This document shows positions 1 to 12,724 of a DNA stretch of 13,533 bases, in pieces. The stretch is from positions 1 through 13,533 of the forward strand of contig JABXGU010000126.1 in NCBI GenBank assembly GCA_016550415.1, given 5' to 3'. Within the stretch, counting starts at the first letter, position 1. The number at the start of each line of letters is the position of its first letter. A program made the translations under genes and the position numbers. The notes beneath the pieces were generated by a model that was given only the letters and a program-made list of their open reading frames with translations, searched no databases and was not told the DNA's origin. Source of the stretch: an archaeon. Its GTDB lineage: Archaea; Asgardarchaeota; Hermodarchaeia; Hermodarchaeales; Hermodarchaeaceae.

Positions 1-801
1 ATCATGGGAAGTATACCTCTCTTTGTAGTTCCAAAAGAAGCACCTATTTTTACAATGATATTACCAGGTTCCAATGCAGCAATTCAAGTATTCATGTTAT
101 TTGTAATATATCCTCTTGCCATCTTAGCTGGTGGTATCATATTCGGCTACATAACTACTCCATTATATCTCACTTTTCACAAGTACATCCTTGGAAGAAA
201 AATGACTTATGGGATATACCAGAGACCTCCTCTAGAAATGGAAAAATTTGGAAAACTGGGTAGCGGATTTTTCCCAGGACTTGTTGCCATCAACATTGCT
301 AGTATGCTGTCCCCATACCTCTCCTCGCTCCTACTTTTTCCATCTGTTCAAGAAAATCAAACAACATTCTTTGGATTTATTATCTTGCTAATATTCACAA
401 GCGCCTTCTCCAGTATTCTCTTTAGTGGAGTCTGGTTCCTTAACGATGCCGGAATTGGATACTCCAATAAAAACACGGCAATGGAGACAGATGGAATTCT
501 TGAAATCAGAAGCTGCGGAGGATGGTACAAACAACTATTGAAGGGTTATGCAGGAATTGGCGCAATTTTCACATATATCGTCTTAATCACTAATTTTTGG
601 TTTACAATGGAAACAGGATGGATGGATCCAATAACAATGATTCTAATACTTTCAATTTTTGTGCCAATCCCAATTTACGCTGCAATGGCCGTGCTCCCTA
701 CGATTATCCTCCTTGAAGTTACCAAAGCACACCGAATTAAGTATGTTCTAAAGGTTGCTAGAAAAATGGGAATTACTGAAGATATGACTAATCTTGTCTA
801 A
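1..801 (+). CDS. Multi-span membrane protein, 5' end outside window (unknown function)
   Basis: No function recognised. The frame is open to the window edge; the first ATG is at 4, but the gene probably starts further upstream. About five hydrophobic spans are visible from that ATG, around residues 25-55, 88-112, 120-147, 180-202 and 210-240, followed by a basic cytoplasmic-looking tail. The protein is a distant paralogue of the 310-residue membrane protein at 10767-11699. Shared landmarks in the same order are an LPG motif before the first long span, a W-(F/L)-(L/I)-(N/E)-D motif after a later span, and an LLKG(Y/F)AGI motif opening the next span. The paralogue has one further N-terminal span before its LPG motif, so this copy has probably lost that span to the window boundary. 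The family looks like a small integral membrane protein without enzymatic motifs. I could not tie it to a known transporter. Confidence 0.75.
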   Translation: MMGSIPLFVVPKEAPIFTMILPGSNAAIQVFMLFVIYPLAILAGGIIFGYITTPLYLTFHKYILGRKMTYGIYQRPPLEMEKFGKLGSGFFPGLVAINIASMLSPYLSSLLLFPSVQENQTTFFGFIILLIFTSAFSSILFSGVWFLNDAGIGYSNKNTAMETDGILEIRSCGGWYKQLLKGYAGIGAIFTYIVLITNFWFTMETGWMDPITMILILSIFVPIPIYAAMAVLPTIILLEVTKAHRIKYVLKVARKMGITEDMTNLV

Positions 802-1487: not shown

Positions 1488-2186
1488 ATGGTGTTAACAA
1501 GCATGTCAGGATCAGACAAAGAAGCCATTCTCATTCGTGTTTCAGAATTTTTATCTAAGGCGGTCAACGATCTTGCAGATGCACTTACAGATATTGCTAA
1601 GCAAGTAACAGAATTTAAGCAAAGCCTTGAAAAAATACGTGGCGATTTAAAGACTGCCCAAGTTACTCCCATTGCAACCTCAACAATACCTCTTCTTTCT
1701 TCTGAAGGAACACCAGCACCCTCCACAGGGAGCCTTTTTGATTTCCTCGAAGGAGAGGAAGGTTCCATGCCAACAACTGCTGAGCCTGAAGGTCTAGCAG
1801 AAGCCATTCTTCTTGGTGAAATGCCTGGACCTGAACTCACTACGCCTCCCACCGGCCCTCCTGCCACACCTCTGACAGGTCCTCCAACTGCACCACCAAA
1901 GGTGCCAACAACCGGTCCACCAAAGGCACCACCCACAGCACCAACAACAGGTCCTCCAACTGCACCACCAAAGGTGCCAACAACCGGTCCACCAAAGGCA
2001 CCACCCACAGCACCACCTGCGGCTATGCCAATGGAACCAGTTTCTACTCCGGCAGTAGCAGCACCGGTTAAGCCAATTGAGGCTCCTGTGGCTTCTTCAT
2101 CAGCATCTTCTGGTGAGGGAATTGGCAGCCTTAGAAGTGAGATGTTGGCTGAAATAAAACGGATTAAAGAGATTTTTGAATCCTAA
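1488..2186 (+). CDS. Helical protein with Pro/Thr/Ala-rich tandem-repeat linker (unknown function)
   Basis: Not a recognised family. Three zones are visible in 232 residues. Residues about 10-58 form an amphipathic, coiled-coil-like helix (VSEFLSKAVNDLADALTDI and onward). Residues about 105-200 form a Pro/Thr/Ala linker built on GPP, TAPP and KVPTT units. The last 20 residues (LRSEMLAEIKRIKEIFES) form an amphipathic helix. Two 24-residue units at residues 130-153 and 154-177 are encoded by an exact DNA duplication. There is no signal peptide or membrane span, so the protein should be cytoplasmic; two helical ends on a stiff Pro-rich spacer suggest a tether or scaffold (inference). The start is uncertain. 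ATG 1488 lacks a ribosome site, whereas ATG 1503 (MSGSDKE) has GGTG nine bases upstream and may be the true start. Confidence 0.8.
   Translation: MVLTSMSGSDKEAILIRVSEFLSKAVNDLADALTDIAKQVTEFKQSLEKIRGDLKTAQVTPIATSTIPLLSSEGTPAPSTGSLFDFLEGEEGSMPTTAEPEGLAEAILLGEMPGPELTTPPTGPPATPLTGPPTAPPKVPTTGPPKAPPTAPTTGPPTAPPKVPTTGPPKAPPTAPPAAMPMEPVSTPAVAAPVKPIEAPVASSSASSGEGIGSLRSEMLAEIKRIKEIFES
1875..2018 (+). repeat. 72-bp tandem duplication, two copies (within Pro-rich gene)
   Basis: Copy 1 spans 1875-1946 and copy 2 spans 1947-2018. Bases 1875-1943 and 1947-2015 are identical over 69 positions, including third codon positions. The unit is 24 codons and stays in frame. Each unit is itself a degenerate double of a 12-residue motif starting TGPP. 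Identity at silent sites points to a recent in-frame duplication, or to gene conversion between copies. Confidence 0.95.
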
Positions 2187-2745: not shown

Positions 2746-4422
2746 CTATAAAGATGATGCGAGGTAACGGAGTCTTTCAAGAACAAGGTCGGGATTGGTG
2801 AAGGCGAAAAAGGCTGAAACGCGAGGACCATCATCTTTTCCAAAAAATACTTGATAGATGAAGCGGAAGAACATTTTTTGGACATCCGCTTTTAGAGGTT
2901 TTGTGATGGGCGTCATAGCATCACGAATAGAACGTTCTGTCCATTTTTTGGGATTGAGAGAATCGATGAGTCTCTGGAATAGAGGACGGAGGATTGGTGA
3001 CACTTGTTGAGAAAGTCCTTCGGGTGGTTCATCTAGAACCCTTATCCGGTAGGTTTCAGGCGCATATGTGGTTATCCAAATCTTTGCTTTTGTAAGGCAC
3101 GCAGTAACATATGCTCGCTCCTGCTTTGAGAGTGTTTTAGGAATTAACTCACTTTTAGCTAGTTTTTCAATTGCCACATCGATAAGATCGTCTGAAGGAA
3201 TTATTTGAGCCAATACAGCGGCATGAAGATAGGGAATCTGAAGAGGTAGCGTTTTTGCAATGGGTCCAAGTTGAGCAAGTTCATAGCTTCGTTTAATATC
3301 ATCGATTTCATTTTGTGCAGCTCTGGGCATATCCACACCAAAGTATACACGTTCAGCGCGATCGTATTGCCCAATATAGGTTGGGATATATTCTAGCCCA
3401 AGAGTAATGCGTTTCATTGGCTTATTCTTTAGGAAGAGGTATCGGAGGGGCTGTCCTGGAGCTACAGAGACCCAGGTTTTTGGAGTAAAACCAATGAAAT
3501 CAGAACTGCCCATATCGCCCTTATCTACACCGCCTTCGATAAGGCCTACCCATTCATATGCGTACGGAAATGGTGGCTTGAATTTGAAGACCTTTTCAGC
3601 AATCTCCTTTGCACTATCTCTGGAGCCTCCGGGAGTTGCATGATCTTTCCCAAAGGGTTCAAAGCCAACATTTAATACACGCCAAAGTGCTGCCCATTCA
3701 ACTCGCCATGACAGTTTTCCTCGGACAAGGCTAGTTGAACCAGTTTTGCCACAATAATTACAGTGGTATTTGACAGTGTAGGCATCCAGATCCACTGACG
3801 TGATTTTAGTATCTGTAATCTTCTGGCATTTTTCGCATACAACATCAAATGGAATCCAATCTGGAGGATGGGGTGCTCGAGCGCGATAGTGATTTACTAC
3901 TTCGCGGACTAGTTCTCGATGCTCGATGGTGTAACGCACCAATTTTTGCATTTCAGGCCAAGCGTAGATTTCATGGGTGCTAAGAACTTCTGCACCTTGA
4001 CTAAATGAATCAAGATAATTACCAAAATCCTGCCAATAACGTTCTGTCCACCCGGATAGTTCACCCTTTGGATCAGGAACATTTACCAGCCGATAACCAA
4101 TGTAATCCTTTGCCTTTTCGCTGTCGAGGAATTGGGCAAGTTGAGCGGTTTTACCCTTCCATTCATCGCTGGTGTAACGGACGATTGTGTGTCTAGTTTT
4201 GATTCCCCGTTTTCGAAGTATTTGCATGACGGTATTGGCTAGCGTTACTTCCCCTCGTAATCGTCCCACATGTTGAAGTCCAGAGACTGAAAGCCCGCAG
4301 CTGCAATTGATGGTATCAGTAGCAGAACCCCAATAGGTAATAATGTCTTCGACAAGCTCATCAATCCAATGTTGATAGGAAGTATGAGCATCAGTTAAGG
4401 TTCCTTTTGGCAAGATATTCAC
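2746..4422 (-). CDS. lysS: Lysyl-tRNA synthetase, class I (LysRS-I), with altered KMSKS loop
   Basis: Class I LysRS, the archaeal-type enzyme unrelated to class II LysRS, would attach lysine to tRNA-Lys using ATP in the cytoplasm. The 558 residues show the HIGH-type motif as SGLQHVGRLRG (H51-R54), a zinc-ribbon insertion with CEKC (196-199) and CNYC (221-224), the FEPFGKDH segment near 254-261, and the helix bundle expected of the C-terminal anticodon-binding region. In the KMSKS region residues 303-309 read DMGSSDF; the position normally held by the ATP-contacting lysine is Asp308. Other active-site neighbourhoods look intact, so either this is a lineage variant or charging is impaired. The start is a GTG at 4422; an in-frame stop lies four codons upstream, and TTG 4413 is an alternative. 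It follows hflX by 49 bases on the same strand, consistent with one operon. Confidence 0.93.
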   Translation of the reverse strand: MNILPKGTLTDAHTSYQHWIDELVEDIITYWGSATDTINCSCGLSVSGLQHVGRLRGEVTLANTVMQILRKRGIKTRHTIVRYTSDEWKGKTAQLAQFLDSEKAKDYIGYRLVNVPDPKGELSGWTERYWQDFGNYLDSFSQGAEVLSTHEIYAWPEMQKLVRYTIEHRELVREVVNHYRARAPHPPDWIPFDVVCEKCQKITDTKITSVDLDAYTVKYHCNYCGKTGSTSLVRGKLSWRVEWAALWRVLNVGFEPFGKDHATPGGSRDSAKEIAEKVFKFKPPFPYAYEWVGLIEGGVDKGDMGSSDFIGFTPKTWVSVAPGQPLRYLFLKNKPMKRITLGLEYIPTYIGQYDRAERVYFGVDMPRAAQNEIDDIKRSYELAQLGPIAKTLPLQIPYLHAAVLAQIIPSDDLIDVAIEKLAKSELIPKTLSKQERAYVTACLTKAKIWITTYAPETYRIRVLDEPPEGLSQQVSPILRPLFQRLIDSLNPKKWTERSIRDAMTPITKPLKADVQKMFFRFIYQVFFGKDDGPRVSAFFAFTNPDLVLERLRYLASSL

Positions 4423-4471
4423 CGGTAAGATTCAAACTCCAAGTAGGACATAACCAAATAAGAAACCATCG

Positions 4472-5671
4472 CTAATCCTCATGATATTCTTTGGGAAGCC
4501 AAATGGAATCTAACTTGCGATAATGTTGGCTGATTCGTTTTATTAACTCGTCAAGGTTCCAACCGGTAATGGCAGAAACCGGAATCCAGTCCAAATCATA
4601 ATTCTCATTAAAGAAGGAAACAATTTCTTTCTCTATTCTTTCTCCAGCAAGGTCTGCTTTATTGAACACAACAATTACCCTTTTGTTTTCTATACCTGTT
4701 GCTTCAAGAATTGTAAGGCTACTCTTTAGCTTCAATTGTAATAGTGTCAAATTATCGGAAGCATCCACAACCAAAAGAAGTAGATCAGCTGCTCGCATAT
4801 CATCCAAATTTAGCTGGAAAGCAGAGATAAGCTCTGGATCCAATCCCAAAGCAAATCCAATAGTATCGACAAATAGCAATCCCGGGTTTACAGAGCTAGA
4901 CCACTTTGAAGCAAGAGTGGTGAAGGGACGATCACTCACCTCTTTGTTTGCACCAGTTAATTTGTTAAACAAACTTGTTTTTCCTGCATTATAGCAGCCC
5001 ACCAAACAAATCATTGGCATACCGAGTTTACGACGCTTTGCCAATCGCCTACGATTTTCCTGACGCATCTTCTCAATTTCTGCAGCCACTTTAGCAATAC
5101 GTTTACGCACTTGTTTAAGCTGAGCATGATACGCATATTCACCAGGACCACTCCCATTGCCTCGAGTTGGTTTTTCACGATAAAGACGTTCTCGTTCACT
5201 CAATTTAATTGAAGGATAGCTCTTCTGAAGCCAAGCCAATTGCAATTGTAACTTTGATACGCGATCTCGAGCCTCCTGTTCGAAAACCTGTAAAACCACC
5301 TCATAGCGATCAATTACTTGGCAGCCAAATTCACGCTGAAGATTGTATTTCTGCATGGAATTGAGTATGTTGTAAGTTACGACAACTTCGATTTCCTCTT
5401 CAGCAACTCGTTCAGCTATTTCTTTGACTTTTCCTGGACCAAAAAGAAAACCAGAATGCATCTTGATTCGACTCTGCAGTATACAATCCACTTCTTCTAA
5501 TCCTGCAGCTTTTACTAACTGCTTAAATTCAGCTAGTTCCACTGGCCATTCTGCATGATCATGCACATGTTGCCGCAGCATCACAATCAAAGTTCGTTGC
5601 ACTAAAACAACACCATGAAAAGATGAAAATAACGCGATAAAAAAATCTTTTTGAACACGAAAATGACGCAC
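4472..5671 (-). CDS. hflX: HflX-family GTPase
   Basis: HflX is a ribosome-associated GTPase which, in studied bacteria, binds large subunits and splits stalled ribosomes; the archaeal role is less established. In order the 399 residues show the N-terminal HflX domain (FLFGPGKVKEI near 76-85), an Arg/Lys-rich coiled-coil region, the Gly-rich linker GNGSGPGE (171-178), and the G domain. That domain has G1 GCYNAGKTS (225-233), switch I PFTTL (249-253), G3 DTIG (269-272), G4 NKAD (337-340) and G5 SAITG (about 364). The start is GTG 5671, the only plausible codon that keeps the first strand VVLVQRT. The roughly 18 residues before that strand are not typical of the family. A TATA box about 36 bases upstream predicts a leader of only about ten bases. 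The gene precedes lysS by 49 bases, linking a ribosome factor to an aminoacyl-tRNA synthetase. Confidence 0.93.
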   Translation of the reverse strand: MRHFRVQKDFFIALFSSFHGVVLVQRTLIVMLRQHVHDHAEWPVELAEFKQLVKAAGLEEVDCILQSRIKMHSGFLFGPGKVKEIAERVAEEEIEVVVTYNILNSMQKYNLQREFGCQVIDRYEVVLQVFEQEARDRVSKLQLQLAWLQKSYPSIKLSERERLYREKPTRGNGSGPGEYAYHAQLKQVRKRIAKVAAEIEKMRQENRRRLAKRRKLGMPMICLVGCYNAGKTSLFNKLTGANKEVSDRPFTTLASKWSSSVNPGLLFVDTIGFALGLDPELISAFQLNLDDMRAADLLLLVVDASDNLTLLQLKLKSSLTILEATGIENKRVIVVFNKADLAGERIEKEIVSFFNENYDLDWIPVSAITGWNLDELIKRISQHYRKLDSIWLPKEYHED

Positions 5672-6043: not shown

Positions 6044-7411
6044 TTACTTCCATCTGCCCATTTCTTCACAAATGGCTGCGACACGCTTTGTTGATTTTAT
6101 GAGGTTGTCAAGGGAGATACTTTCGTTGGGAGAGTGGGCACGGGAGTTATAGTCACCAATCCCAATTGAGACCATTGGAACATATTTCTTAAAGAGGTAA
6201 AGTGGTCCAGAACCAGGATTTGTTGGATGCACTCGAAGTTTGTGTCCGAACACTTGTTGCGTTGCTTTTGCCACGATTCCTACAAATGGATGGCTAACAG
6301 GAGTTTTGGCAGCAAAATAGCCTTCATGCCATGCAATCTTGACATCAGTGAAACCATGGGTGTCCAAATGGTGTCTAAGTTTTTTCAGAATATCATTAGG
6401 GTTCTGATTCTCTACTAGTCGAAAATCTATCTTAGCTGAGGCTTTTGCAGGAATGATTGTCATGGAGCCTTCTTTTTGATAGCCACTTGTGAGTCCACAA
6501 ATGTTCAGGCTTGGCTCACCATAGTAAGCATGTTTTAGTGCTTCTCCTTTGAGATTGAGGATAAAGGTTTTAATGTTATAGAACTTGCGTCGTCGATCCT
6601 CTTCAAGATCTATGTCAGAAATAACGCGAAGCTCAGCTTCTGTTAGTGGTTGAACATCATCATAAAATCCTGCAACCTGAATGCGTTCCTGTTCATCCTT
6701 AAGCGAGTTCAGTGCCCACACTAATCGATAAGGTGCGGAGGGAAGGATACAGGAATTGGAGGAATGAGCATCATGGGAGAGACTTTCAACTTCCAATTGA
6801 ACATAAAGGATGCCCTTCAAACCGAGCCATGCTTCTTGAATGCCATCAAAGCCTGCGCTACCAAATTCCCATATGCCACCATCAGCCTTAAGGAAATCTG
6901 CATGCCGCCTTGTAAAATCAGTCAGATTGGGACTACTGATTTCCTCTTCACCTTCAATTAGGAACTTCACATTCACGGGTAATTTTTCTCCAGTATCATG
7001 GAAAGCACGAATGGCCCAAATCCTTGAAATAGTATCTCCTTTGTTATCTGAAGTTCCTCGTCCATAGAGTCGCCCCTGTCTAACTTCAGGTTCGAAGGGT
7101 GGTGATTCCCAGAGTTCAAAGGGTTCTGCTGGTTGAACATCATAATGATCATAAAAGAGTAAAGTCCGCCTTGCACCTACATCAAGACTTGCAGTTACTA
7201 CAGGAGCCCCAGTGGTGGAATGGAGCTGGGTCCTAAGTCCAGCTTCCTTGAGCATGGAAATAAGAAGACTTGCAGCTTCTTCGAGACCCTCACCCTTAGC
7301 TGCCACTGAAGAAATACGACAGAGTTTCATGACATCTTGGATAATGTTAGTAGAATTCCGTTCGATATATTCGAGCACTGCTTTTGTCATATCAATCAAA
7401 CCTGTTCCCAT
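6044..7411 (-). CDS. M20-family metallopeptidase (dipeptidase/deacylase-type)
   Basis: A two-zinc M20 amidohydrolase of the ArgE/DapE/carnosinase superfamily, hydrolysing a peptide or N-acyl amide bond in the cytoplasm. Residues seen are the metal pair in FYDHYDVQP (H89, D91), the bridging Asp in GRGTSDNKG (D122), the catalytic and metal glutamates in EGEEE (153-157), and the distal His in RAHSPNES near the C-terminus. The segment around 195-330 is the dimerisation lid domain, with the LSHDAHSS motif. At 455 residues it matches carnosinase/CNDP-like members better than the shorter ArgE or DapE, so a dipeptidase is the likeliest role. The ATG at 7411 fits a near-leaderless transcript. The ATG at 7390 (MTKAVLEY) has AGGT about ten bases upstream and is an equally good start. 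It lies 87 bases behind the Mth938-like gene on the same strand. Confidence 0.9.
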   Translation of the reverse strand: MGTGLIDMTKAVLEYIERNSTNIIQDVMKLCRISSVAAKGEGLEEAASLLISMLKEAGLRTQLHSTTGAPVVTASLDVGARRTLLFYDHYDVQPAEPFELWESPPFEPEVRQGRLYGRGTSDNKGDTISRIWAIRAFHDTGEKLPVNVKFLIEGEEEISSPNLTDFTRRHADFLKADGGIWEFGSAGFDGIQEAWLGLKGILYVQLEVESLSHDAHSSNSCILPSAPYRLVWALNSLKDEQERIQVAGFYDDVQPLTEAELRVISDIDLEEDRRRKFYNIKTFILNLKGEALKHAYYGEPSLNICGLTSGYQKEGSMTIIPAKASAKIDFRLVENQNPNDILKKLRHHLDTHGFTDVKIAWHEGYFAAKTPVSHPFVGIVAKATQQVFGHKLRVHPTNPGSGPLYLFKKYVPMVSIGIGDYNSRAHSPNESISLDNLIKSTKRVAAICEEMGRWK

Positions 7412-7945: not shown

Positions 7946-7994
7946 CGAGGATAGTGTCAAAACTATTGACTGTAGCACTTTGGAGAAGATGATT

Positions 7995-9311
7995 ATGACT
8001 GTGAAAGTGGGTATCCGGCACGAAGACAAATCCTTCGAATTGCGTACACCAATCGTTCCCAAGGATGTAAAGGAACTTGCTGCAAAACATGGGCTAGAGT
8101 TCGTTGTAGAATCATCAAAGCAGCGGGCCTTCACAGAGGAAACTTACCAAAAAATGGGTGCAACTATTGGCAGTCTTCGTGGAGTTCAGGTACCGGTGAT
8201 TTTCGGATTAAAGGAGATTCCCGGCAAGGAATTTGAAGCAGGCAAAGTCTACCTGTTCTTTGCACATGTAATAAAGGGGCAGCCACATAATATGTCAATG
8301 CTGCAGCAAATCATCGATGTGGGTGCCACTCTCATTGATTATGAAAGGATTATTGACGTGGAATCTGGTCGACGATTGATTTTCTTTGGTAATTGGGCTG
8401 GCTATGCAGGAATGGCTGAAACACTTCGTGCATTTGGTCAACGTCTGGAAAATGAAGGCATTAAGCCCAATCCCTTTTCTGAACTTCGTCCTACCTACGA
8501 GTATGATGGACTAAAAGCCCTAGAAGCTGCGATAGAACATGTTGGCAAACGCATTAAAACAGAGGGAATTGCACCCTCCATCTCGCCTCTAGTAATTGGA
8601 TTTATTGGGTATGGAAATACTTCAAAGGGTGCACAGACAATTTTTGACCTACTACCCCACAAAGAAATCACTCCCGATGCTCTATCGAAGCTAGAACCAA
8701 ATCATCACATACTCTACAAGGTAGTATTCCACGAAGAGCATACAGTACGCCCAATTGACCCGACAACTACCTTTAATTTACAGCATTATTATGAAACGGG
8801 AAAAACAAAGTATGAATCACGATTCTTCAAGTATCTACCACATTTGAGCATGTTGATGAATTGCATCTATTGGAGTGATAAATATCCCCGAATGGTGACT
8901 CTGACTGAAATCAGTCAACTCTGGCAGCAAACAAAAGGGAAACCTCGCCTCAGAGTTGTAGGGGACATTAGTTGCGACATAAATGGAGCTATAGAGTTCA
9001 CTGTGCAATCAACAAAACCTGACCACCCAACCTTTGTTTACAATCCCTCTACTGGTAATGCTACACTAGGAATTGATGGACCCGGCATTGTTGTCATGGC
9101 AGTTGACAATCTGCCAACAGAACTTCCCCGTGAAGCATCCACTTCTTTTAGTGAGACACTTCGCCGTTTTATCCCTGCAATAGCAAAGGCAGATTATTCT
9201 GCTCCCTTCGATTTGTTGGATCTTCCACCGGAAGTGAAAAAAGCGGTAATTGTATATCGGGGTGAATTAACTCCCGAATACCAATATCTTAAGAAGCACT
9301 TGCAAGGTTAA
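7995..9311 (+). CDS. Lysine-ketoglutarate reductase (LKR half of AASS, saccharopine dehydrogenase lysine-forming family)
   Basis: It condenses lysine with 2-oxoglutarate and reduces the product to saccharopine, or runs the reverse, using NAD(P)H in the cytoplasm. The protein belongs to the AlaDH/PNT-fold family and resembles the N-terminal half of eukaryotic AASS along its whole length. Landmarks are an RTPIVPKDV motif near the start, FGLKE with the presumed catalytic Lys73, FFAHVIKGQ with His91, a DYERIID and FGNWAGYAGM pair, the nucleotide-binding segment GYGNTSKGAQ, LMNCIYW, GDISCDINGAIEF and VDNLPTELPREAS. Its 438 residues match one AASS half. ATG 7995 is preferred because GGAG (7982-7985) is nine bases upstream; TTG 7980 and ATG 7989 are in frame but poorly placed. 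The saccharopine dehydrogenase gene follows after 39 bases. Confidence 0.92.
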   Translation: MTVKVGIRHEDKSFELRTPIVPKDVKELAAKHGLEFVVESSKQRAFTEETYQKMGATIGSLRGVQVPVIFGLKEIPGKEFEAGKVYLFFAHVIKGQPHNMSMLQQIIDVGATLIDYERIIDVESGRRLIFFGNWAGYAGMAETLRAFGQRLENEGIKPNPFSELRPTYEYDGLKALEAAIEHVGKRIKTEGIAPSISPLVIGFIGYGNTSKGAQTIFDLLPHKEITPDALSKLEPNHHILYKVVFHEEHTVRPIDPTTTFNLQHYYETGKTKYESRFFKYLPHLSMLMNCIYWSDKYPRMVTLTEISQLWQQTKGKPRLRVVGDISCDINGAIEFTVQSTKPDHPTFVYNPSTGNATLGIDGPGIVVMAVDNLPTELPREASTSFSETLRRFIPAIAKADYSAPFDLLDLPPEVKKAVIVYRGELTPEYQYLKKHLQG

Positions 9312-9334
9312 ACTTAGTTTGGTTTCAGTAAGTA

Positions 9335-9339
9335 GGAGG
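9335..9339 (+). promoter_or_regulatory. Strong ribosome binding site of the saccharopine dehydrogenase gene
   Basis: GGAGG lies 11 bases before the ATG at 9351 in the 39-base gap after the reductase stop. It is the strongest Shine-Dalgarno match in the window and supports separate translation of the two enzymes from one transcript. Confidence 0.75.
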
Positions 9340-9350
9340 CGTAAATCTGA

Positions 9351-10679
9351 ATGAAACATGTACTAGTATTAGGAGCTGGACTGGTGGCAAAACCCTACAT
9401 TAGATACATGCTAGAACACGAATATCAAGTCACAGTTGCTAGCCGAACAGTGAGCAAAGCAGAACAACTAATCGGTGACCACCCTAATGGCATCGCTCGT
9501 GCCTTCGATATAAAACATCAAACAGAAGAATTATCGAATCTTGTTAAATCTTCAGACCTCGCTGTCTCCCTTTTGCCATATACCTTCCATGTCCAGGTGG
9601 CAAAGGAGTGTATACGACATAGGACCAATATGGTTACTACCTCCTATGTTTCTGATGAGATGCGAGTCCTTGATGCTGAAGCGAGGAAGTCAGGTATTAT
9701 CTTGTTAAATGAGTGTGGCGTCGATCCTGGTCAGGATCATATGAGCGCCATGAAGATTATACATGGTGCCCAAGCATCAGGTGGACGCATTATCTCCTTT
9801 ACCAGTTTTTGTGGTGGACTTCCTGCACCTGATGCAAACACGAATCCCTTTGGCTACAAACTGTCATGGAGTCCAAGGGGCGTTCTGATGGCAGGGCGGA
9901 ACTCGGCTCACTTTCTTAAAAATGGAAAAGAAGTGCTGATTCCAGGGGAAGAACTCTTCACCCATTGTCATAAGGAGACAATCCCGGGTCTTGGTGATTT
10001 TGAAGGATACCCCAATCGGGATTCCCTCCAATACATCGACCTCTATGGACTGAAAGGGGTGAAGACAATGCTCCGAGGAACACTTCGATATCCTGGTTGG
10101 TGTGAGACAATGTACGCAATCAGCAAGCTCGGACTACTCGATTTGACAGAACAACCACTCCAAGGCATGTCTTATGATAATTTCATGCGCAAACAGATTG
10201 ACGTATCCTCCAAGAAGAATGTGATGCTGGAAACAGCGAATTATCTGAAATTACCAGTAGAGGGTCCCCTTCTCAGCAAACTAAGATGGTTGGGTCTATT
10301 TGATGACCGACAGATTCCAATAGAAAAAGGTGCAGCTATAGATGTTTTGACAAGTCTCTTCAAAGAAAAACTACAATATAGACCTGGCGAACGCGACATG
10401 CTTATTATGCAGCACAATTTCGAAATAGAATTCTCTGGCGGAAAACGAGAGCACACACGTTCTACCCTCATTGACTATGGAATCCCCAATGGTGACTCAA
10501 GCATGAGCAGGACTGTAGCACTCCCAGCAGCCATAGCTTCGCATTTAATTCTTGAGGGTGAAATACAACTAAAAGGAGTTCAAATCCCGATTCTCCCAGA
10601 ACTCTATAAACCAATCCTAAGAGAGCTATCAGAGCTTGGTATAAGATTCGAAGAAGAAACAACCAGAGCCAAGAACTGA
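9351..10679 (+). CDS. Saccharopine dehydrogenase, glutamate-forming (SDH half of AASS, LYS9-like)
   Basis: It oxidises saccharopine to 2-aminoadipate 6-semialdehyde and glutamate, or performs the reverse as in fungal lysine synthesis. The 442 residues resemble the C-terminal half of eukaryotic AASS and yeast Lys9. They show an N-terminal Rossmann GAGLVAKPY (8-16) with VASRTVSKA after the second strand, SLLPYTFH, LNECGVDPGQDHM, then the substrate-domain signatures FGYKLSWSPRGVL, EGYPNRDSLQYIDLYGL, RGTLRYPGWCE and the C-terminal MSRTVALPAAIA. All family landmarks are present, with no truncation or frameshift. It directly follows the lysine-ketoglutarate reductase gene, in the same order as the domains of AASS. 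The next gene is 87 bases downstream, so this pair may be a complete two-gene operon. Confidence 0.93.
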   Translation: MKHVLVLGAGLVAKPYIRYMLEHEYQVTVASRTVSKAEQLIGDHPNGIARAFDIKHQTEELSNLVKSSDLAVSLLPYTFHVQVAKECIRHRTNMVTTSYVSDEMRVLDAEARKSGIILLNECGVDPGQDHMSAMKIIHGAQASGGRIISFTSFCGGLPAPDANTNPFGYKLSWSPRGVLMAGRNSAHFLKNGKEVLIPGEELFTHCHKETIPGLGDFEGYPNRDSLQYIDLYGLKGVKTMLRGTLRYPGWCETMYAISKLGLLDLTEQPLQGMSYDNFMRKQIDVSSKKNVMLETANYLKLPVEGPLLSKLRWLGLFDDRQIPIEKGAAIDVLTSLFKEKLQYRPGERDMLIMQHNFEIEFSGGKREHTRSTLIDYGIPNGDSSMSRTVALPAAIASHLILEGEIQLKGVQIPILPELYKPILRELSELGIRFEEETTRAKN

Positions 10680-10766: not shown

Positions 10767-11699
10767 ATGGAACAAAGAGACATCGTAGCCATCATTGCGA
10801 TTTTTGTATGCGTTGGTGTTGATGTGGCTTGGGCACTCCTTAATATTGTCATCCCACTACTTTTGGGAGCCCATGGCGATATAGTTCCATTATTACCTGG
10901 AAACGCCATAACCGATTGGCTCATCCTTTGGTACCTAATACCTCTTCTTTCGATTCCTCTCTATGTTCTATTAGCCAATATTTCATCACGATGGTTAGTA
11001 TTACCACTCAACCAATTATTGAATCTCGGACATGAAGTCTATTACTTTGGACCTGAAACAACACGAAAACAGCCCACTCTAACATTAGCACGCAGAGCAT
11101 TCTTTGCAGTTATCCTCATGTTTGGACTAGCACTTTCAATCACCAAGTTCATGCCCGAACAATGTGCCATCCTTCATTTCACAGATGCATTCAAGGATTA
11201 CCCCATTTTCAATGAGATGAACCAAGCAATTATCCTGATGCCACTCATCTTTCCTTTCCTTGCCCTAATTCTCCCATCCTCTTGGCTCATTGAAGACACA
11301 AACTTAGTTTTCCACACTTTTCCAAGCAGTGGCCCTCAAGAACTAAAAAACGCTGGTCGAACACTCATAACCCTACTAAAAGGATTTGCTGGCATCTTCG
11401 TAATTTTGGATTATTTCCGTCTAGCCTGGAACATTGCCTTTGCATTCCCAGTTTGGCAATCTGTAGCGCCTCAGGGTGTACCTCTCTGGTTATTCTTTAT
11501 CATCACATTTGTCAACCCCTTCGTCTATCTCTTCATGCCACTCCTCGCATTAATATTGTACTACAGATTCTTCCCTAGCCTACACGACAAATTCATAAAG
11601 AATATGAAATCAAAGGGAATTGTAGAGATTGGACAGATAGTCAAAGTGGATGTAGATATTTCAAATATGCTAGGTGTAAAAGAGACAAGTCAAGACTAG
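10767..11699 (+). CDS. Multi-span membrane protein, paralogue of the one at the window start
   Basis: No function recognised. In 310 residues about six hydrophobic spans are visible, near 6-30, 48-72, 106-127, 148-170, 200-225 and 240-268, followed by a charged C-terminal tail of about 35 residues. It shares LPG, WLIED and LLKGFAGI landmarks and overall spacing with the protein encoded at 1-801, so both belong to one family present at least twice here. No transporter, kinase or peptidase motif is seen. The start ATG has only a weak ribosome site very close to it (GTGAT at 10760-10764), so leaderless translation is possible. It is 87 bases after saccharopine dehydrogenase and could be co-transcribed; a link to lysine transport would be speculation. 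Confidence 0.8.
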   Translation: MEQRDIVAIIAIFVCVGVDVAWALLNIVIPLLLGAHGDIVPLLPGNAITDWLILWYLIPLLSIPLYVLLANISSRWLVLPLNQLLNLGHEVYYFGPETTRKQPTLTLARRAFFAVILMFGLALSITKFMPEQCAILHFTDAFKDYPIFNEMNQAIILMPLIFPFLALILPSSWLIEDTNLVFHTFPSSGPQELKNAGRTLITLLKGFAGIFVILDYFRLAWNIAFAFPVWQSVAPQGVPLWLFFIITFVNPFVYLFMPLLALILYYRFFPSLHDKFIKNMKSKGIVEIGQIVKVDVDISNMLGVKETSQD

Positions 11700-11839: not shown

Positions 11840-12724
11840 CTACACAAAGGGACGACGTTTTTCATATAAAACAAAACCCATCGTTTCTGAGCTTGTTTTC
11901 AGCCATGACAACTTCTTACCCCTACGAAATCTCACTGGGTGAAGGCACATAATAGTAGTAGCGCCATTAGCTTTCGCTGCCCTGAGTTGAACTGACAACG
12001 CTGAAAGAAAAGCTTCACCATCAAGGGCATAAACAGCTGAATACCACTGCTTCGAGCCAGGATCTCCCAATACATAGCCAAAGGAAAGAGACCTAACATT
12101 TCCGTTGTCTTTTCCCATCCAGAACTGACCAAAGCCTCCAAGAGATTCAATTGAAGTCCTCACAGCATCAAAGGCATACCAGTTATATGCAATAATACCC
12201 TTTGGAAAGATTTCAGGCTTAACCTTTAGCAGAAGAAGAACATCCTTTACAGTGCAAGGCACCGTCGGAACCAAATCGTAAGACCATTGAACTGAGCCAA
12301 GATCTCCCCTCCAAAACACTTTCATGCGGAGAAGTTCATCCATCCCAAATTGCTGTACCAACCGTCTAGTTCCCACATTCACACTGGCAGTTGTCAAACG
12401 AAGCCGCTCAACACCCAACCTGGCTCCAGCATCAAACAAATGACGCGTCATAGCCCTCGCATAACCACGCCTTCGATACCATCTGCGAACCCTCAAACCC
12501 TCCAGCCACCCAGTCCGCCCACTCTCTATAATCCTCAGAGCACTAAAAGAAACTACACGACCTCTGAACTCTGCAACAAAAATATGCCTGTTAGCATCCC
12601 TAGCCCATTCATCCAAAACATTAGGCAAGTAATCATACCCACCCCAAGTATGCTTAGCAATCTCCAAAATCTCAGGCTTATCAGATTCCCTAAAGGGACG
12701 AATTACCAGCGACAAATCAGTCAA
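11840..12724 (-). CDS. GNAT-family N-acetyltransferase with extra C-terminal domain
   Basis: The N-terminal half is a GNAT fold that would transfer an acetyl group from acetyl-CoA to an amine; the acceptor is unknown. Visible parts are the opening strand VIRPFRESD, WLEGLRVRRWYRRRGYARAM with the acetyl-CoA motif R-x-x-G-x-A at 84-89, and the later VNVGTRRLVQQFGM. The arrangement LEGLRV followed by a basic stretch recalls animal NAT16/histidine acetyltransferase-like proteins. Residues about 155-294 form a second domain, possibly a degenerate second GNAT repeat, with no motif I can name. The start must be TTG 12724 or TTG 12715, because an in-frame stop lies eight codons upstream; GTGAG at 12729-12725 sits nine bases before TTG 12715 and favours the latter. 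The gene is 176 bases behind the NHL gene on the same strand. Confidence 0.85.
   Translation of the reverse strand: MTDLSLVIRPFRESDKPEILEIAKHTWGGYDYLPNVLDEWARDANRHIFVAEFRGRVVSFSALRIIESGRTGWLEGLRVRRWYRRRGYARAMTRHLFDAGARLGVERLRLTTASVNVGTRRLVQQFGMDELLRMKVFWRGDLGSVQWSYDLVPTVPCTVKDVLLLLKVKPEIFPKGIIAYNWYAFDAVRTSIESLGGFGQFWMGKDNGNVRSLSFGYVLGDPGSKQWYSAVYALDGEAFLSALSVQLRAAKANGATTIMCLHPVRFRRGKKLSWLKTSSETMGFVLYEKRRPFV

Follow-up and report, generated by a model that had tools for sequence, protein, structure and literature searches.

The LKR and SDH genes of the window

Here, we describe two adjacent genes in a 13,533-nt stretch of DNA (contig JABXGU010000126.1; the whole stretch is referred to below as the window) that are predicted to encode lysine-2-oxoglutarate (lysine-ketoglutarate) reductase (LKR) and L-glutamate-forming saccharopine dehydrogenase (SDH), counterparts of the two domains of the eukaryotic lysine-degradation enzyme AASS. 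We consider it likely that they form an ordinary saccharopine-pathway pair, probably functional, in an Asgard archaeon of Hermodarchaeia type, where they would degrade lysine. The LKR gene occupies positions 7995..9311 of the plus strand (438 aa; ATG at 7995, stop at 9311), with alternative starts at 7989 and 7980 and, as read from the sequence, a Shine-Dalgarno-like GGAG 9 nt ahead of the ATG at 7995. The SDH gene follows on the same strand at 9351..10679 (442 aa; ATG at 9351, stop at 10679) and is preceded by a likely ribosome-binding site, AGGAGG (9334..9339, plus strand), read from the sequence 11 nt before its start. The LKR stop codon plus 39 nt lie between the two. Unlike eukaryotic AASS, therefore, the window encodes two separate proteins instead of a single AASS-like polypeptide.

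Both genes were identified as open reading frames with Pfam and PDB matches far above chance. Residues 6-433 of the predicted LKR align to the LKR domain of human AASS (PDB 8dda, E 1.2e-59; about 33% identity), residues 3-185 match fungal Lys1 best (3ugk), and Pfam places an AlaDh_PNT_N domain in the protein (5.7e-20). The predicted SDH aligns best to yeast Lys9 (residues 2-437; PDB 2axq, 2e-94) and has nearly end-to-end matches to Magnaporthe saccharopine reductase (1e5l) and to the SDH of human AASS (5l78, 9.4e-92; about 40% identity). Its NADP-binding (Sacchrp_dh_NADP, 5.4e-23) and C-terminal saccharopine dehydrogenase domains (Sacchrp_dh_C, 2.1e-82) span the whole length. In an LKR alignment of 16 rows including the human protein, K73, H91, E117, D324, S326 and D328 are invariant, and only the internally deleted row P0038 departs at the GxG positions 205 and 207, which it lacks. 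K73 and H91, the candidate acid-base residues, are presumably the counterparts of yeast K77 and H96, the yeast sequence lying outside the alignment. The LKR thus matches a characterised LKR domain over nearly its full length and carries both candidate acid-base residues. Reading frames, PDB and Pfam matches and conserved residues all agree with the sequence-only reading, in which adjacent full-length LKR and SDH genes had been recognised in the AASS order with their family landmarks. The likeness to eukaryotic AASS extends to both near full-length domains, their order and the conservation of candidate catalytic residues; unlike oomycete proteins, the pair lacks a PF04455 domain.

The closest matches are unnamed metagenome proteins, with identities of up to 90% for LKR and 87% for SDH. 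The best named homologues of the pair carry Promethearchaeota, Hermodarchaeota and single Odinarchaeota and Hodarchaeota labels (63-72% identity), followed by Thorarchaeota homologues at about 54-59%. As all the best named homologues are of Asgard type, the Asgard host that had been suspected from the letters alone is well in keeping with them.

Features of both proteins bear on the choice of cofactor. After its second strand the SDH has SRT, which resembles the CRT of the NADP-type fungal Lys9 and differs from the SDM of the human enzyme. In the LKR alignment, the column with the Arg of the human Ser-Arg pair is occupied by H, R or K, all of them basic. PMC9490328 explains NADPH binding by Ser266 and Arg267, residue numbers that are not mapped onto our alignment. 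Together, the SRT loop and the basic LKR residue suggest that both enzymes may use NADP(H).

Lysine pathways in Asgard genomes and the direction of the pair

LKR was found in 67 of 227 Asgard genomes (E 1e-20), and the distribution of other lysine genes among these genomes leans to degradation, a direction previously left open. LysW occurs in 47 of the 227 genomes (seven above the cut-off) and in none of the 67 with LKR at E 0.001 (Fisher p 1e-8; this and the later Fisher p values are inflated by kinship). The contrast with the LysW system drawn in the sequence-only reading thus holds inside the Asgards, where genomes were searched for LysW. LysA-family matches are present in 132 genomes, 64 above the cut-off; they are shared with LKR in 18 genomes, only one of which (G097) exceeds the cut-off. 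Homocitrate synthase above the cut-off was detected in 15 of the 227 genomes, all LKR-negative, and hence in 0 of 67 LKR genomes (Fisher p 0.007); many LKR genomes do contain weaker homologues, which score about 290-375 bits against a cut-off of 413.55. Since neither LysW nor above-cut-off LysA or homocitrate synthase was found in the Hermod- and Thor-type LKR genomes (terms that denote positions in trees, not names), degradation is the simplest role for the pair and probably its direction. In four LKR genomes of a Hodarchaeota-type group (G005, G006, G052 and G053), the LysA-family matches contain one or two internal stops and are perhaps decaying genes or assembly errors.

The lysine-fermentation marker 3,5-diaminohexanoate dehydrogenase (KDD) is present in 43 of the 227 genomes, 41 above the cut-off. 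It accompanies LKR in only two of the 67 LKR genomes (G096 and G097) and was found in none of G070-G077. In G097, LKR adjoins KDD and lysine 2,3-aminomutase with SDH divergent (L135:932-6072), placing two lysine-breakdown routes side by side, an arrangement that counts for lysine breakdown.

The search for later enzymes of the route added a candidate, a divergent 552-aa aldehyde dehydrogenase of the type found at locus L141 (ALDH552). It occurs in 51 of the 227 genomes (E 1e-80) and is shared with LKR in 44 of the 67 LKR genomes (Fisher p 1e-22). Among the 47 Thor-type genomes, 33 have both genes, five have neither and nine have one; both are present in seven of the eight genomes G070-G077, and elsewhere among Asgards four of 22 LKR genomes also have ALDH552. 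A class V aminotransferase gene follows ALDH552 in 7/8 Hermod-type loci and in 7/30 of the ALDH loci examined. Another candidate semialdehyde dehydrogenase, at L137, was rejected as methylmalonate-semialdehyde dehydrogenase.

Near the pair itself, an indolepyruvate oxidoreductase cluster (one member identified) was present in all seven Thor-type loci mapped. Six of 101 gene maps (L007, L021, L028, L045, L047 and L053) show a class III aminotransferase close to the pair, all of them non-Asgard loci from Thermoplasmatota, Methanobacteriota, Bipolaricaulota and Cloacimonadota. The one scanned, from L007, scores above the cut-off for GABA transaminase and below that for 2-aminoadipate transaminase. 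Its presence near pairs outside the Asgards fits a catabolic setting. Ten genes that recur beside non-Asgard pairs were scanned; most of them look unrelated, this aminotransferase and an M20 peptidase being the exceptions.

In the route that we propose, lysine would be taken up from peptides and then degraded. LKR, probably using NADPH, would form saccharopine from lysine and 2-oxoglutarate; SDH, for which NADP+ is the probable cofactor, would split this into glutamate and aminoadipate semialdehyde. ALDH552 could then oxidise the semialdehyde, and the class V aminotransferase encoded beside it could transaminate the resulting aminoadipate, both genes being located in relatives and not in the window.

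Several observations weigh against this route. ALDH552 is missing from 23 of the 67 LKR genomes, and seven genomes have it without LKR. It is far from characterised enzymes (best PDB match 170 bits) and scores 118 bits on the L-piperidine-6-carboxylate dehydrogenase model, for which the cut-off is 730. Its gene is not near LKR in the gene maps, the one match being distant (24%) and in a bacterial locus. The class V aminotransferase best matches aspartate-glyoxylate aminotransferase, far below the cut-off. To these are added the kinship that inflates the p values, subgroups delimited by handle order, and absences that come from genomes of unstated completeness and are each weak alone. Finally, the NADP-type loop of the SDH resembles that of the biosynthetic fungal Lys9 and not that of the catabolic human SDH.

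This loop also speaks for a reversed pathway, in which the pair would run from aminoadipate semialdehyde to lysine, as in the fungal Lys9/Lys1 route, which is biosynthetic. Lysine needs some source, and the 67 LKR genomes lack LysW and hold a single above-cut-off LysA, a further point in favor of synthesis. However, the fungal route needs homocitrate synthase, which does not reach its cut-off in any LKR Asgard genome (Lys2 was not searched), and the KDD and lysine 2,3-aminomutase genes adjoining LKR at L135 belong to lysine breakdown. We therefore regard biosynthesis as unlikely. It is still harder to see the pair as a source of pipecolate or another lysine-derived compatible solute, an explanation that we judge very improbable. 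Aminoadipate semialdehyde cyclises to piperideine-6-carboxylate, which speaks for such a route. In PMC7253579, saccharopine genes are linked to osmotic stress in plants and bacteria, which would suit this role. On the other hand, no such reductase was present among 20 scanned neighbours of Asgard pairs (P5C reductase was not searched in the genomes), and it is the aldehyde dehydrogenase ALDH552 that co-occurs with LKR instead. Degradation of lysine remains our preferred reading.

Distribution, ancestry and relation to eukaryotic AASS

One genome per species was scanned for LKR, yielding at least 581 confirmed relatives, the best 80 of which were analysed as loci. Sixteen of these 80 are archaeal by title, and the sources of the 80 loci include Asgards, Thermoplasmatota, other euryarchaea, Bacteroidota, Bipolaricaulota, Aminicenantes, Chloroflexota, Acidobacteria and others. 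SDH directly follows LKR on the same strand in 69 of the 80 best loci, mostly bacterial, so that the same two genes stand in the same order as in the window. In the other 11, the contig ends in four (L009, L012, L014 and L066), SDH lies 2-4 kb further on in two (L018 and L050), overlapping frames hid it in one (L058), and no SDH is nearby in four (L024, L025, L049 and L062). In whole-genome loci, two of which are from Thermoplasmatota, SDH directly follows LKR in 34 of 36; the genes are 1.5-1.8 kb apart in L132, L179 and L181 of the group G059-G068. Two Thorarchaeota genomes (G001 and G002) have two LKR copies each. Given its presence in 69/80 loci, 67/227 Asgard genomes and many bacterial phyla, the pair is neither rare nor confined to Asgards. 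Among viral contigs, none of 31 pattern matches was confirmed as an LKR relative, and plasmids searched with human LKR gave only distant relatives (12 records with 22-32% identity, four covering at least 80%).

Fused LKR-SDH proteins were found in eukaryotes, in bacteria labelled Terriglobales or Verrucomicrobiae and, as a single case, in Thermoplasmata; open frames at LKR matches in the 227 Asgard genomes reach at most 508 aa. The prokaryotic fusions are split over three positions in a FastTree LKR tree (L081-L088 omitted as repeats) and likewise in a mixture-model tree, where no well-supported branches force this separation. Their scatter makes it likely, if not proven, that fusion arose repeatedly.

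Bacterial LKR and SDH were reportedly described by Serrano et al. in 2012 (FEBS Lett), to judge by the title, and Neshich et al. in 2013 are said to be a further source on them. For the Asgards, no title or abstract beginning among the open PMC papers listed concerned the LKR-SDH pair, and the words lysine and saccharopine are absent from the main texts of three Asgard papers (PMC10307638, PMC9723677 and PMC8163825), supplements lying outside the term search. The pair was correctly recognised and is of a known kind, and it turns out to be widespread in the Asgard phylum.

Ancestry was addressed with trees of each half and of both combined: an LKR mixture-model tree (100 of 183 LKR rows), an SDH tree (91 rows; 10 rows without SDH omitted), a quick concatenated tree (82 rows; eight more omitted as long, divergent or compositionally odd), a later quick concatenated tree (72 rows including 13 eukaryotes) and its careful rebuild (72 rows, 860 columns). 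The labels of P0043, P0044 and the genomes were assigned by tree place or handle order. Hermod-, Thor- and Hodarchaeota-type sequences form one clade in the LKR mixture tree (support 96), in the quick concatenated tree (99) and in the careful one (100/99; 999/1000 bootstraps), in which each lineage is its own subclade at 100/100. This grouping of the sampled pairs favours inheritance within Asgards over recent transfer from bacteria, and the outcome that was to speak against the sequence-only reading, Asgard pairs nested shallowly within a single bacterial group, did not appear. A recent bacterial origin gains something from the scatter of relatives over many bacterial phyla, from the FastTree analysis without a mixture model, which puts two Hodarchaeota LKR rows with Thermoplasmatota and not with Thor and Hermod, and from the SDH tree, which unites Thor and Hermod (96) and leaves Hod unplaced. 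Two Phycisphaerae-type LKR proteins (P0039 and P0042, one so named) are also nested inside the Hermod clade, so that transfer or misbinning does occur. They sit within that clade, not around it, which looks like transfer out of Asgards to Planctomycetota, or misbinning. Against the clade of three Asgard types recovered above, recent acquisition from bacteria seems to us decidedly unlikely. A second Asgard group (L132, L134 and L179-L181) falls outside the main clade, among Thermoplasmatota and bacteria; hence, Asgards likely acquired the pair more than once.

Eukaryotic AASS proteins form one separate clade (100 in both the LKR mixture and careful concatenated trees). Their nearest neighbours in bootstraps were L177/L178 (678/1000), from two Asgard genomes that are perhaps heimdallarchaeial by handle order only (G059 and G060), followed by two Bacteroidota (293/1000), in trees whose bacterial rows come from the best 80 of at least 581 relatives and may lack bacteria close to eukaryotes. 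Apart from L178, L177 best matches bacteria in LKR (L011, 52%) and Hermod-type sequences in SDH (P0009, 54%), which weakens a special link to eukaryotes. As their contigs are 4.2 and 3.4 kb long, L177 and L178 are possibly misbinned. An association of eukaryotes with L132/L134 (89 in one quick tree) was unstable and disappeared when that group was sampled with additional rows. All these sampled Asgards joined eukaryotes as a clade in 70/1000 bootstraps. The 72-row quick tree was a poor optimum, since a tree that kept Asgards and eukaryotes together was better by 24 log units (p 0.89), which led to the careful rebuild and a repeated test. An Asgard plus eukaryote clade had p 0.47 for LKR and, for the concatenated data with most of the sampled Asgards in the clade, an AU p of 0.25 at 2.15 log units below the best tree. 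With the placement of eukaryotes unstable, an Asgard origin of AASS is thus neither rejected nor supported, and we would give only a small chance to descent of AASS from an Asgard pair that was later fused. The earlier suggestion that the split, ordered pair is informative about the origin of AASS was overstated: such pairs are common in bacteria and archaea (69/80 loci and 67/227 Asgard genomes), so that splitting and gene order say little about that origin and cannot alone serve as evidence on it.

Neighbouring genes and implications

Directly after SDH, the window encodes a 310-aa membrane protein (10767..11699, plus strand) with about six hydrophobic segments by hydropathy and no Pfam match. 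A homologue with 40-49% identity occupies this position in all six Hermod-type loci examined (L117-L122), making it the third gene of a conserved Hermod-type cluster and setting these loci apart from other split pairs. A second membrane protein with about six hydrophobic segments by hydropathy (4-801, plus strand) is weakly similar to the first (24% over 140 aa, E 1.6e-5); the two are possibly involved in lysine or peptide transport.

Upstream of LKR, Pfam identifies a divergently oriented M20-family dipeptidase (6044..7411, minus strand). The gene is upstream in three of the six Hermod-type loci (65-70% identity) and absent from L118; L121 and L122 start near LKR. In four loci of Bacteroidota (L027, L051, L056 and L057), a similar M20 peptidase is encoded downstream of the pair. 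Genes for class I lysyl-tRNA synthetase and hflX (2746-5671, minus strand) are near the lysine genes, and in L120 (genome G076) lysyl-tRNA synthetase, hflX and M20 peptidase are ordered as in the window, with two further genes separating hflX from the peptidase. The Hermod-type neighbourhood, that is, the membrane protein and the gene order of L120, agrees with the Asgard homologues of the pair.

On the far side of the cluster, a GNAT protein (11840-12724, minus strand) weakly matches Hisat_C (PF24066, at 3.7e-5 and below the cut-off) and is possibly a double GNAT of the HisAT/NAT16 type; homologues are present in L117 and L121. PMC12219266 reports a Thorarchaeota protein with such a double-GNAT structure. 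The window also encodes a 232-aa proline-rich protein (1488-2186, plus strand) in which PTGPPKAPPTAP-like stretches recur and for which Pfam gives no match.

For the biology of the group, the saccharopine pair emerges as widespread in Asgards and, in the genomes examined, as never occurring with LysW and almost never with KDD. ALDH552 and the class V aminotransferase that adjoins it are two candidates, open to testing, for the steps that follow in lysine degradation.

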